Origin: Solobacterium sp.
GTDB taxonomy: Bacteria; Bacillota_I; Bacilli_A; Erysipelotrichales; Erysipelotrichaceae
NCBI GenBank assembly: GCA_017469355.1
Contig: JAFUGM010000015.1
Coordinates: 1-64,000 of the forward strand
Length of the DNA: 64,000 nt
Direction: 5' to 3'
Below are positions 29,636 through 47,890 of the stretch, in pieces. Numbering within the stretch: position 1 is the stretch's first letter; every line of letters begins with the position of its first letter. A model generated the notes under the pieces. That model worked only from the letters and a program-made list of their open reading frames with translations. It ran no database searches and was not told the DNA's origin. A program made the position numbers and the translations under genes.

Positions 29636-29752
29636 TGGCAGAATGGATGTTTTTGCGATTTAAAACTTTGGCAGAACGGATATTTTTTGTGTTGAAAATT
29701 GTGGCAGAACGGATATTTCAGGCTAAAATAATATTGGCAGAACGGATATTTT
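29636..29752 (+). repeat. Four direct repeats, 33-bp period, before DUF4143 gene
   Basis: The core TGGCAGAACGGATATTT occurs at 29669, 29702 and 29735, with a variant (TGGCAGAATGGATGTTT) at 29636. All starts are exactly 33 bp apart; the 15-16 bp between cores differ. The last copy ends 20 bp before the start codon at 29773 and just before its GAGGTGAG ribosome site. A matching arrangement with a different repeat precedes the other DUF4143 gene at 46442. Confidence 0.9.
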
Positions 29753-29772: not shown

Positions 29773-31113
29773 ATGGCTCTATTTAAACGCAAACTGTATG
29801 ACAAATTGCTGGAATGGAAAGAACAGTCTGCAGGGAAATATGCTGTTTTGATCGAAGGCGCAAGACGTGTAGGAAAAAGTACTCTGGTGAAGGAATTCGC
29901 TGAAAATGAGTACGAATCCTATGTGATGATAGACTTTTCAAATACATCAAAGGAACTCAGAAACTGCTTTGATGATATCGCAGATTTAGATAGATTCTTT
30001 TTGCGACTTCAAACGATCACAGGCACTCAGCTGCTAAATCGAAACTCCGTGATTATTTTTGATGAGGTTCAATTATTTCCACAGGCAAGACAGGCAATCA
30101 AGCACCTTGTCGCGGATGGAAGATATGATTACATAGAAACCGGATCCCTGATATCAATCAGAAAAAATGTAAAAGATATTCTGATTCCCTCCGAAGAAAT
30201 AAAATTGAAGCTGTATCCATTGGATTATGAAGAGTTTTTATGGGCGAGTGGAAATGAGACATACCGAATGCGAAAGGAGTTTTTTGAAAACAGGAATGCG
30301 ATTGGCAATTTGCTGAATAGAAAACTGATGCGTGATTTCAGAGTGTATATGGCTGTAGGAGGGATGCCGCAGGCAGTTCAGGCATATCTTCAGAAAAAGA
30401 GCTTTAGAGAGATTGATGAAGTCAAAAGAGAATTGATACATCTTTATGAGGATGACTTCAGGAAGATAGATTCTTCAGGCTTATCAGCCAGAATATACAG
30501 GGACATACCCTCACAGCTTGCACATAATAGAAAGCGTTATGTTATCTCCAGTGCTACGGGGAAGAAAACGCAGAAACGGGATTTGGAAAGGTTATATGAC
30601 GTAATTGATTCACAAACGGTTTTAGCGTCATATAACATCGCAAAACCAGACATCAGTTTATCAAGCACAAAAGACTTAAACAGCTACAAGCTTTACATAG
30701 CGGATACAGGACTGTTTGTGACATTGATGTTTATGGACAGACCTGCCGCAGAAAATATACTTTATGAAAAACTGCTGTCGGACAAACTGCCTGCAGATTT
30801 GGGTTATCTGTATGAAAATGTGGCGGCACAGATGATTGCCGCGTCAGGAAGAGAACTCTGTTATCACACCTGGCAGAAACCGGACAGTACACATTATTAC
30901 GAAGTGGATTTCCTGATAGGAATAAAACAGAAGATCATTCCTATAGAGATAAAATCATCCTCAACAACTTCTCATAAATCAATTGATGTTTTTTGTGAGA
31001 AGTATTCACAGGTCGTTGGCCGGCCGTATATTTTTTCCCAGAAAGATATCTCAAATGATGGGCAAATCCTATTTATGCCGATTTATATGATGCCGTTTCT
31101 GCTGGAAGAATAA
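29773..31113 (+). CDS. AAA ATPase with DUF4143 domain
   Basis: A 446-residue protein. Residues 15-170 are an AAA_14-type ATPase: Walker A EGARRVGKST, Walker B SVIIFDEVQ, and YIETGSLISI as sensor region. The C-terminal part is DUF4143 with a PD-(D/E)XK-like motif, YEVDFLIGIKQKIIPIEIKSS. Function of this widespread family is not established; its members often sit alone in variable regions, as here. The frame is open upstream through the repeat array, but the ribosome site and the first conserved residues (MALFKRKLYDKLLEW) place the start at 29773. Base composition is more AT-rich than its neighbours, a sign of transfer. Confidence 0.88.
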   Translation: MALFKRKLYDKLLEWKEQSAGKYAVLIEGARRVGKSTLVKEFAENEYESYVMIDFSNTSKELRNCFDDIADLDRFFLRLQTITGTQLLNRNSVIIFDEVQLFPQARQAIKHLVADGRYDYIETGSLISIRKNVKDILIPSEEIKLKLYPLDYEEFLWASGNETYRMRKEFFENRNAIGNLLNRKLMRDFRVYMAVGGMPQAVQAYLQKKSFREIDEVKRELIHLYEDDFRKIDSSGLSARIYRDIPSQLAHNRKRYVISSATGKKTQKRDLERLYDVIDSQTVLASYNIAKPDISLSSTKDLNSYKLYIADTGLFVTLMFMDRPAAENILYEKLLSDKLPADLGYLYENVAAQMIAASGRELCYHTWQKPDSTHYYEVDFLIGIKQKIIPIEIKSSSTTSHKSIDVFCEKYSQVVGRPYIFSQKDISNDGQILFMPIYMMPFLLEE

Positions 31114-44754: not shown

Positions 44755-45645
44755 ATGCGGACATTATCAGGTGTTCTGAAAGAACAGTATGGAGAAAAAC
44801 TGTATAAGTTGAGCCTCTCCTCCGGCTGTACCTGCCCGGTACGTGACGGAACGATTTCCAAAGATGGATGTACGTTCTGTTCGGCTGGGGGATCCGGAGA
44901 ATTTTCTGTTCCCTTTCTGCCAATTGAAGAACAGATAACCCTTGCCAAGAAAAACGCAGCAGGCAAACATGCCGGAAGTTATATTGCGTATTTTCAATCC
45001 TATACCAACACCTATGGAGATCCTTCCCGACTGCGGGAGTTATATACAGCTGCTATTTCCTTTCCCGAGATCAGAATTCTTTCCCTTGGCACACGTCCGG
45101 ATTGTCTTGGGGATGAGATGATGGAACTGCTGATTGATCTTAATCGCATCAAGCCGGTATGGGTGGAGCTTGGGCTTCAGACCATTCATGAAGAAACCGC
45201 ACAGCGGATTGGTAGGGGATATCCTTTATCTGTATATGAAGAAGCGATTCAGAAACTGAAGTCGGCTGGTATTACCGTCATTGTGCATATGATCTTTTCG
45301 CTTCCGGGAGAAAGTGAAGAAATGATGCTGGAAAGTATGCGATACCTCTGTGATCCATCGCATCGTCCGGATGGCGTGAAGTTACAGATGCTGAATATAT
45401 TGAAAGGCAGTCAGATGGAAGAAGAGTACCGGAATGAACCGTTTCCTCTATTAAGCCAGGATACGTATACGAGTCTTATTGTGAAAGCGATTCAGATACT
45501 TCCGGTAGATATGGTACTTCACCGTATGACAGGAGATGGCCCAAAGCAGCTTTTAGTCGCGCCAACATGGGTATGTAATAAGAAGGCTGTGCTGAATGAA
45601 ATCAACCGGAAGCTACGAGCACTTCCGGTCAATCCGCTACGATAA
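44755..45645 (+). CDS. Radical SAM protein, TIGR01212/YhcC-like
   Basis: A 296-residue radical SAM protein with the unusual long spacing of this subgroup: Cys residues in SSGCTCPVRDG, then CTFCS, which bind the [4Fe-4S] cluster. GTRPDCL and VWVELGLQTIHEETAQRIGRGY follow, as in Elp3-like barrels, with a final part IQILPVDMVLHRMTGDGP. E. coli YhcC belongs here; the reaction is unknown. It ends in a 17-base convergent overlap with the pentapeptide gene. Confidence 0.9.
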   Translation: MRTLSGVLKEQYGEKLYKLSLSSGCTCPVRDGTISKDGCTFCSAGGSGEFSVPFLPIEEQITLAKKNAAGKHAGSYIAYFQSYTNTYGDPSRLRELYTAAISFPEIRILSLGTRPDCLGDEMMELLIDLNRIKPVWVELGLQTIHEETAQRIGRGYPLSVYEEAIQKLKSAGITVIVHMIFSLPGESEEMMLESMRYLCDPSHRPDGVKLQMLNILKGSQMEEEYRNEPFPLLSQDTYTSLIVKAIQILPVDMVLHRMTGDGPKQLLVAPTWVCNKKAVLNEINRKLRALPVNPLR

Positions 45646-46267
45646 TTCCAAGCAGTTTCGCACAGGCTGCGGCCTGATCATAATTGAGCGTGACACCTTT
45701 CAGATCGGCTGGTTTTACAGAAATCCCGCCGATTTCACTGTCGGAAAAATCTAACCCATTCAACGGTGTATCACCGAAATCGCAGGCACTGAAGTCACAG
45801 TGATGAATTCTGGTGTGCTTCCATGTACAACGGGAAAAATAAGATTCCTGAAACAGAGAATCTTCCAGTGTGATTCTGTCCCATGAGGTATCGGAAAAGT
45901 TGCCATAAGAGCTCTGACAGTCTGAATAGACAACATCCTGAAATGAACTGTGACTCCATTCTGTTCCCATCATTCGACAGCGCTCAAACCGGCATCTTCG
46001 AAATATGTTCTGTTCAAGATGGCTGCCGGAGAAATCACAGCCGGAAAACAACACGTCAGAAAACACAACACCAGAGGCCTGATCAGAAAATACAGTTGAA
46101 CGAAATATACATTCATTGATGCGGGTATCCGGCGCAATAAAAGAAATCTGTTCCTCAATAAACCGCATGGATTCAATTTCGTGTTCATGACACCTGTCAC
46201 TCCAGGAAGCTTCACACTGTTCGAAATGAAACTGAGGAGCTTCGGCTTCAAACCGATTTGTTTTCAT
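45629..46267 (-). CDS. Pentapeptide-repeat protein
   Basis: A 212-residue protein with five-residue A(D/N)LxX-like coils from about residue 50 to 185 (INECIFRSTVFSDQASGVVF, FSGCDFSGSHLEQNIFRRCR, YSDCQSSYGNFSDTSWDRI), which fold into a right-handed beta-helix. Qnr and MfpA proteins of this fold mimic DNA and shield gyrase; many others have no known role. The gene is followed upstream by a DUF4143 cassette, and a diverged fragment of a paralogue lies on the far side of it (47767). Confidence 0.88.
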   Translation of the reverse strand: MKTNRFEAEAPQFHFEQCEASWSDRCHEHEIESMRFIEEQISFIAPDTRINECIFRSTVFSDQASGVVFSDVLFSGCDFSGSHLEQNIFRRCRFERCRMMGTEWSHSSFQDVVYSDCQSSYGNFSDTSWDRITLEDSLFQESYFSRCTWKHTRIHHCDFSACDFGDTPLNGLDFSDSEIGGISVKPADLKGVTLNYDQAAACAKLLGIIVAD

Positions 46268-46343
46268 ATATCGAACCGTACAGGATAATACCTATGATGT
46301 CAATGAAACGGATAAGCCGATCGAACTCCTGCAATCCAAATTC
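46268..46343. other. Short intergenic region
   Basis: Between the divergent pentapeptide gene and the repeat array; no further feature recognised. Confidence 0.4.
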
Positions 46344-46402
46344 TGAAAAGTGCTCATCAAATTATCTGAAAAGTGCTCAGTGAATCTCTTGAAAAGTGCT
46401 CA
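46344..46402 (+). repeat. Three direct repeats, 23-bp period, before DUF4143 gene
   Basis: The 13-bp core TGAAAAGTGCTCA is exact at 46344, 46367 and 46390, with starts 23 bp apart; a weak fourth copy (ATATGTGTTCA) may follow near 46414. The array ends 26 bp before the AAGGAGG ribosome site of the ATPase. The sequence differs from the array at 29636 but the position relative to a DUF4143 gene is the same. Confidence 0.9.
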
Positions 46403-46441
46403 ATGATATGGCAATATGTGTTCAGCAAGGAGGCGACGACA

Positions 46442-47725
46442 ATGAGTTTAACGAAGGAAGGATATAGGCCCCGACTCATTGATGATAGGATAGCAAGATA
46501 TCTGCGTGTGTTTGGAGCGGTATCAATCGAAGGACCAAAATGGTGTGGGAAGACATGGACAAGTCTGAACCATGCTAATAGCGTGACATATCTGACTGAA
46601 ACAAGTGCCCGAAACCTGGCGAAGGTAGATCCGAAATATGTTTTTACAAACGATCGCCCACAGCTTATCGATGAGTGGCAGGTTGTTCCAGAGGTATGGG
46701 ATGCCGTGCGCCACGAGTGCGATAGTGACCATGACAAAGGAAAATTCATTTTGACTGGCTCCACGTCATTAAAGAAAAGACGAGGTGAGGGAAAGATATA
46801 TCACACCGGGACTGGCCGAATTGCTCCTTTGAGGATGCATCCTATGAGCCTTTTTGAATCTGGAGATTCCACCGGTGAAGCCTCAATTGTTGGTATGAGA
46901 GACGGTCAGATTAATGAGGGCTTTGTCAGAAAAGTAGAATTAGCTGAAATTGCAAGACTCCTCATTCGAGGGGGATGGCCGGAAAATCTCGATATGGCGA
47001 CGGAAGATATTGGGATTATCCCTGAAAGCTATATTGAAGCCATTGTGACAAAAGATATGCACGAAGGGCAGACGAAAAAGAGAAGTCCTCAGAAGATGCG
47101 TATGCTTTTGAAGGCATTGGCCCGACATGAGGCATCTCCTGTTGGGGATCAGGCGTTGGTCAGGGATATCGAAGAGTATGAGACAAATGATGAGCTGATC
47201 AAAAGCAGAGCTACGATTGCGGATTATACCAGCGTACTGGACAGCTTGTATCTGACCGCAGATCAGGAGGCCTACAGCCTACATTACAGGTCATCAACAA
47301 GGATCGGAAAATCTGCTAAACGGCATCTCGTGGATCCATCACTCAGCTGTGCTTGCCTGCAGCTAACACCTGATAAGCTGATGAATGATCACGCAACGTT
47401 TGGCCTTATGTTTGAAGCGCTGGTCGAAAGAGATCTGCGAATTTATGCTGATTATCTTGAGGGGCATCTTTATCATTTCCGGGATAACGCATCCGGTGAC
47501 GAAGTGGATGCAATCATTGAGTTCAAGGATGGAGAATATGCAGCCTTTGAGATCAAACTGAGCGATGGCAGTATCGAAGATGCGATTCAGAGTTTAAGCA
47601 AATTCTGTGAGCACGTTGAAAAGAAACCAGTTTATATGTGCGTTGTTATCGGACACTTGGATACCGTGATGAGGGATCCAAATACAGGGGTATTTATTGT
47701 CCCACTGACATCTCTAAAACCATGA
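46442..47725 (+). CDS. AAA ATPase with DUF4143 domain
   Basis: A 427-residue protein of the same family as the one at 29773 but from another branch. Walker A is EGPKWCGKTWTSL, Walker B is RPQLIDEWQVVPE, and FILTGSTSLKK follows. The C-terminal DUF4143 part has the nuclease-like motif VDAIIEFKDGEYAAFEIKLSD (written here in two parts of the same segment). AAGGAGG at 46428-46434 sets the ATG at 46442; an upstream in-frame ATG at 46373 lies inside the repeats. It stands between a pentapeptide gene and a pentapeptide fragment, as an inserted unit would. Confidence 0.88.
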   Translation: MSLTKEGYRPRLIDDRIARYLRVFGAVSIEGPKWCGKTWTSLNHANSVTYLTETSARNLAKVDPKYVFTNDRPQLIDEWQVVPEVWDAVRHECDSDHDKGKFILTGSTSLKKRRGEGKIYHTGTGRIAPLRMHPMSLFESGDSTGEASIVGMRDGQINEGFVRKVELAEIARLLIRGGWPENLDMATEDIGIIPESYIEAIVTKDMHEGQTKKRSPQKMRMLLKALARHEASPVGDQALVRDIEEYETNDELIKSRATIADYTSVLDSLYLTADQEAYSLHYRSSTRIGKSAKRHLVDPSLSCACLQLTPDKLMNDHATFGLMFEALVERDLRIYADYLEGHLYHFRDNASGDEVDAIIEFKDGEYAAFEIKLSDGSIEDAIQSLSKFCEHVEKKPVYMCVVIGHLDTVMRDPNTGVFIVPLTSLKP

Positions 47726-47766
47726 TCGAGGTTCTGGAAGCCACCGAGAATGATCAGAAAACATGG

Positions 47767-47890
47767 TTGATCGAAATATGTATTCATTGATGGGTACCTG
47801 GCCTAAGGAAAGAAATCCGTTCATGAATAAGCAGAATGGATTCAATTTCATATTCATGATGCCTGTCATTTCGGGAAGCTTCATTGAGTC
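47767..47890 (-). pseudogene. Diverged fragment of a pentapeptide-repeat gene
   Basis: About 120 bp that aligns base by base with 46093-46215 in the N-terminal half of the pentapeptide gene, in the same orientation. Shared blocks include CATTCATTGATG, AAAGAAATC, ATGGATTCAATTTC, TTCATGA, CCTGTCA and GAAGCTTCA, with roughly a quarter of positions different. The rest of the gene is missing. The DUF4143 cassette thus lies between an intact gene and a paralogous scrap. Confidence 0.7.

Follow-up and report, generated by a model that had tools for sequence, protein, structure and literature searches.

Phased direct repeats upstream of DUF4143 ATPase-nuclease genes as candidate gene-specific operators

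Results and discussion

A private 23-bp array precedes a DUF4143 gene

The window analysed here, a 64,000-nucleotide stretch of Solobacterium sp. DNA, carries on its forward strand a gene for a 427-residue AAA_14-DUF4143 ATPase (46442-47725), assigned by domain and profile matches to the PADLOC family PDC-S01 and placed in clade A of the tree described below. Its likely start is the ATG at 46442, which is preceded by AAGGAGG; a GTG located within the array is the less likely start. Directly upstream, as the first-pass annotation had described, TGAAAAGTGCTCA occurs three times on the same strand as exact copies (46344-46356, 46367-46379 and 46390-46402), each 23 bp after the previous one, and TRF reports an array at 46337-46402 with a period of 23. 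The weak fourth copy that had also been noticed was recovered by direct reading and is best placed at 46412-46424 on the forward strand (CAATATGTGTTCA), where 8 of 13 positions are identical at a distance of 22 bp. A -35-like hexamer, TTGAAA (46389-46394, forward strand), coincides with the 5' part of copy 3, and a -10-like CAATAT (46412-46417, forward strand), which agrees with the consensus at 3 of 6 positions, is overlapped by the weak fourth copy.

Exact matches to TGAAAAGTGCTCA in the 2.69-Mb genome were confined to the three window copies, and the reversed control pattern gave none. When up to two mismatches were allowed, 44 matches were found genome-wide against 27 for the reversed control, and the repeats thus form no evident regulon. 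A regulon reading of the arrays was unsupported, both units found in the window being private to their own genes. A search of Rfam gave no match up to E = 1, and the reading as an RNA element was dropped.

The neighbours of the array and its gene in the window are ordinary metabolic genes, with no transposase among those examined. We also observed a 135-bp direct duplication, 80% identical, that flanks the array and ATPase gene (46080-46214 and 47751-47883) and derives from the start of a neighbouring pentapeptide-repeat gene (45629-46267, minus strand). It is perhaps a trace of how the array and gene arrived.

The encoded protein combines a STAND/Orc-type ATPase with a predicted nuclease

The AlphaFold model of the window protein has a mean pLDDT of 90.5. 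For residues 1-307 the nearest solved folds were 2QEN (Z 14.6, rmsd 3.9 over 249 residues) and 2FNA (Z 12.9, rmsd 4.8 over 259 residues), followed by further STAND proteins including NLR/CED-4 (Z 11-12); Orc/Cdc6 folds were also among the structure matches. Both Walker motifs are conserved, and in Walker A (GPKWCGKT, residues 31-38; 46532-46555, forward strand) G31, K33, G36 and K37 are invariant in 35 homologues, giving a P-loop ATPase with a winged helix as in STAND/Orc-type AAA+ proteins. The helix modelled at about residues 256-268 (47207-47245, forward strand) follows two other helices and precedes a hairpin, and was for this reason taken as the predicted recognition helix of a winged helix-turn-helix; covariation, described below, points to the same segment.

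The C-terminal domain alone (pLDDT 92.4) matched the McrC, Can2 and Card1 nucleases with Z scores of 8-10, the comparison with McrC 6hz4 giving Z 10.3 and an rmsd of 2.6 over 106 residues. Its motif E354-x-D356 ... E370-x-K372 (47501-47557, forward strand) is invariant among homologues. Together, the motif and the modelled restriction-endonuclease-like fold identify a predicted PD-(D/E)XK nuclease.

A sequence search found no relatives among the sequences of solved structures, and NCBIfam gave no match. PADLOC PDC-S01 profiles matched both window proteins (E 7e-62 and 4.5e-97), and the combination of AAA_14, DUF4143 and profile match places them in the PDC-S01/DUF4143 ATPases, a candidate defence family. 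According to PMC12988326, which counts roughly 39,000 PDC-S01 genes, PDC-S01 is an ATPase fused to PD-(D/E)XK, and DUF4143/PDC-S01 ranks fourth in abundance among the candidate defence genes of prokaryotes; validation of most PDCs is described as pending in PMC12988326 and PMC13356809.

A companion array and numerous paralogues share the genome

A second array with another core and another period had been reported before a further DUF4143 gene, and this was confirmed. Four GGCAGAACGGATATTT-type copies with a period of 33 rather than 23 bp lie at 29637-29751 on the forward strand: a diverged one at 29637, then GGCAGAACGGATATTT itself at 29670, 29703 and 29736. They precede a gene for a 446-residue AAA_14-DUF4143 ATPase (29773-31113, forward strand), placed by the tree in clade B.

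The Solobacterium genome contains 27 DUF4143 genes, against 0-10 in each of the 59 relatives searched. About 10 of the 27 have strong arrays, and their units are all different. DUF4143 genes were also often found paired side by side, several pairs combining different clades (G000:C74 34264 + 35739; C68 13081 + 14616; C67 108388 + 109319; and, in a relative, G032:C210 8389 + 10525).

Arrays are widespread and their period follows the protein clade

Upstream regions were scored by the best three-copy phased repeat within 220 bp of the gene, with spacings of 18-51 bp left unconstrained. In a first sample of 151 DUF4143 genes, taken from the Solobacterium genome, its relatives and class-level homologues, 65 had 10 or more of the 13 columns identical. 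This threshold was reached by 5/133 other genes and by none of 302 shuffles, which ruled out chance. The four highest-scoring genes among the 133 controls matched the DUF4143 array of their own locus in reverse complement. Periods in this sample were 23, 32-33 and 46 bp, with one case each at 34 and 39.

In a 144-protein tree, the 23-bp form was present in 38/43 genes of clade A (the GPKWCGKT type, to which the window gene belongs) and the 33-bp form in 34/51 genes of its sister clade B (which contains the gene at 29.6 kb). Two other DUF4143 clades were essentially without arrays, one having an array in 1/21 genes and the other a different repeat in 1/29. The array labels could be explained on this tree with 21 changes, whereas shuffled labels needed 62.3 on average; the expectation of the first-pass annotation that repeats should track the ATPase clade is in agreement with this result.

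The breadth of clade A was examined with 88 loci from public genomes and viral contigs, a few of the genes repeating ones already counted. At a score of at least 9, an array was found in 80 of the 87 evaluable loci, at 22-23 bp in 78 of these 80, in hosts from Bacillota, Bacteroidota, Spirochaetota, Actinomycetota, Saccharibacteria, Deltaproteobacteria and archaea. Copies on plasmids (Collinsella, Bacteroides) also had the 23-bp form. Neighbouring genes in the clade A loci reached the same score in only 3/232 cases, one of them with a repeat that exactly matches a clade B unit already known; with the 5/133 of the first sample, these controls ruled out a general property of upstream regions. 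Further clade B genes had an array in 64/80 cases, every one at 32-34 bp.

Two variations on this pattern were observed. At L056 a 12-copy array upstream of a DUF4143 gene consists of two alternating 23-bp units that produce a 46-bp higher-order period, and the clade A arrays of L081, L118 and L237 also scored best at 46 bp. In a DUF4143 clade with the P-loop GIRRCGKS (L022, L027, L028 and L023), the upstream regions have no phased direct repeats; there seem to be inverted repeats near the promoter of these loci, which may represent a third geometry; L022, for example, has ACTGACAGATTTT...AAAATCTGTCAGT.

Repeat units keep a frame and vary in a core

Across clade A, 114 of 124 genes had an array, with 3-12 copies each. 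Their units align to AAAWnTnnCnGAATnAAA, the variable core occupying approximately positions 7-11. Within the subgroup of the window gene, GAAAAGTG is mostly kept and the bases that follow it vary, being GCTC in the window, GCAA or GCAT in relatives at 74-83% identity and GTAT or GTTA in others. The similarity of units rises with protein identity (Mantel test, 0/2000 permutations). The earlier suggestion that each protein has a repeat sequence of its own holds in that the window units are private and units differ between genes. A 62%-identical homologue from Candidatus Saccharibacteria (L173) has three exact copies of TGAAAAGTGTATA, with the same core as L061 and L116; this shared core suggests transfer of array and gene across phyla.

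Arrays lie on one side of the gene, at its promoter

In 108 genes, 324 core copies were counted within 230 bp upstream and only 6 within 300 bp downstream. Relative to the end of the last core, the best -35-like hexamer has two preferred start points, about 14 bp upstream and about 9 bp downstream, which differ by one period; promoter consensus scores were only slightly above those of shuffles. In L061 and L062, which are near homologues, the last repeat holds TTGAAA, followed at 17 bp by TATAAT. The equivalent in the window is TTGAAA-17-CAATAT, with a poor -10 that a strict promoter scan missed. At many other loci the array sits just upstream of the -35. The repeats lie at the promoter of the gene that they precede, and the two window units are private to that position, as would be looked for in an autoregulated operator.

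One alternative is that the array serves as a self-specific docking site that holds a nuclease oligomer inactive (or primed), transcription control being secondary, and that phage action on the host DNA displaces the oligomer and releases the nuclease. The STAND-like fold (2QEN, 2FNA, NLR/CED-4), the invariant PD-(D/E)XK motif, the PDC-S01 profile match and the privacy of both window arrays would all suit such a guard. A pure docking site, however, would have no need to lie upstream only and at a preferred phase near the promoter. We consider this role unlikely, although it is the most interesting of the rivals.

Similarity between the window locus and the five closest homologues examined starts at the array and stops at the stop codon. 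These limits indicate that array and gene form one module placed in different surroundings, and the five homologues indeed have differing flanks and come from different phyla. The same unit might be expected if the array were the end of a mobile element, with transposase-type sites as repeats and the ATPase as an IstB/TnsC-like helper that moves together with them. There is no second, inverted end, however, the 6 downstream copies standing against 324 upstream, and the absence of a transposase among the window neighbours examined also speaks against this reading, which we regard as very improbable; a two-ended transposon of the IS21/Tn7 type was rejected on the grounds that repeats occur on one side only.

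A spacing of 22-23 bp is typical of plasmid iterons. This spacing, the Orc/Cdc6 folds among the structure matches and the plasmid location of some copies are what a replication or partition site of the iteron-Rep or Orc-ORB kind would show. Such a site is hard to reconcile with 27 DUF4143 genes in one genome, with a clade-specific spacing of either 23 or 33 bp, with an array at the gene's own promoter and with metabolic neighbours in the window, and we judge it extremely unlikely. Both the transposon-end and the replicon reading are weakly supported, and the label "iteron" implies no plasmid replicon here.

Covariation links the repeat core to the predicted recognition helix

Mutual information was calculated for clade A between 279 well-filled protein columns and the 23 unit positions (about 6,400 residue-base pairs). 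The highest z, 9.3, belonged to residue 257 paired with base 11, and the next, 8.3, to residue 256 paired with base 8; both exceed the 95% point of the permutation maximum (7.3). The two residues are neighbours at the beginning of the helix predicted to be the recognition helix, and their partners are core bases 8 and 10-11. R256 was accompanied by G8 in 22/23 cases, D257 by G11 in 36/38 and I257 by T11 in 5/5, pairings of Arg with G, Asp with a G:C pair and Ile with T that are chemically sensible.

Tree-independent pairs comparing D/E257 with G11 were concordant in about 8.7 cases and discordant in 0.1 (median sign-test p 0.008). The rules were then applied to held-out sequences, unused in rule finding and at most 80% identical to those used. 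D/E257 predicted G11 in 5/5 against 7/30 (p 0.0024), and the full 257-to-11 rule reached an accuracy of 0.50 against 0.22 (p 0.0004). For 256 and 8, tree-controlled pairs were nearly always concordant and too few for significance, and the rule did not replicate on the held-out sequences (p 0.34 and 0.38). The coupling of residue 257 to base 11 thus appears well supported by the sequence comparisons, and that of residue 256 to base 8 probable only. Clade B gave no significant residue-base pair, in part as its units are hard to bring into register.

The arrays could also be an operator for another regulator, with the ATPase only the target, and RptR, a small repressor acting on direct repeats at a defence promoter (PMC12255303), sets a precedent for this. 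Against it, the cores co-vary with a predicted recognition helix in the ATPase itself and the module common to close relatives holds no other gene, which makes a separate regulator highly improbable. The same covariation, together with the Mantel result, argues for the cognate pairing of repeat and ATPase that the first-pass annotation had put forward.

Proposed mechanism

We propose, at a probability of about 0.68, that every ATPase-nuclease controls its own gene by binding the repeats in front of it, probably as a repressor. Computation established that the arrays exist, that their spacing is specific to the clade, that the two window units are private, that arrays lie on one side of the gene and that residue 257 is coupled to base 11, also on held-out sequences; physical binding, cooperativity, repression and the trigger are what we infer. 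The module would consist of one gene and its own operator array, the product being an AAA+ ATPase of STAND/Orc-like fold that also has a winged helix-turn-helix and, at the C-terminus, a PD-(D/E)XK nuclease domain. In each repeat, a core of about 5 bp would be read by the recognition helix. The 23-bp period of clade A corresponds to two helical turns and the 33-bp period of clade B to three, a spacing that would place identical subunits on one face of the DNA and make cooperative binding possible, beside or over the gene's own promoter.

Autoregulation, probably as repression, would keep a potentially harmful nuclease scarce, with release when the protein is consumed or its nucleotide state changes, for example during phage infection. 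Repression is favoured since the array overlaps promoter elements in the window gene and its near relatives; activation would also suit the loci where the array sits just upstream of the -35. Paralogues would need different cores, which would avoid cross-control among the many copies in one genome.

A bolder version, which we think improbable, is a self-labelling immune system. Here a STAND-type nuclease would recognise its private barcode array via the residue-base code, many orthogonal copies would coexist in one genome, and the nuclease would be armed not just by derepression but also when the barcode is lost or masked during infection.

Under the autoregulatory model, a self-specific array and a partial recognition code would make part of each protein's DNA target predictable from its sequence. 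The open question on DUF4143/PDC-S01 would become one of direct experiments, and the family would offer a large natural collection of mutually orthogonal protein-DNA pairs.

Comparison with known systems

In the openly accessible journal literature searched we found no description of arrays before DUF4143/PDC-S01 genes, nothing on iteron-like repeats with an autoregulated ATPase and no established function for DUF4143/PDC-S01. The passages on PDC-S01 in PMC12988326 and PMC13356809 mention neither promoter arrays nor autoregulation.

The nearest folds, PABY2304 (2QEN) and SSO1545 (2FNA), are archaeal STAND-class AAA+ ATPases with a sequence identity to the window protein of only 15-16%. Initiator-like proteins that bind phased repeats near their own gene are found in plasmid iterons with Rep and in archaeal Orc1/Cdc6 with origin boxes; unlike these, the window family has a nuclease domain and many divergent copies per genome. 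RptR, which is encoded first in an E. coli defence island, likewise binds three direct repeats located in a defence promoter, but it is a 9-kDa dimeric repressor acting on adjacent 9-bp repeats at one conserved site (PMC12255303). In the arrays described here the candidate regulator is instead the ATPase-nuclease itself, and the copies are 23 or 33 bp apart with a gene-specific sequence.
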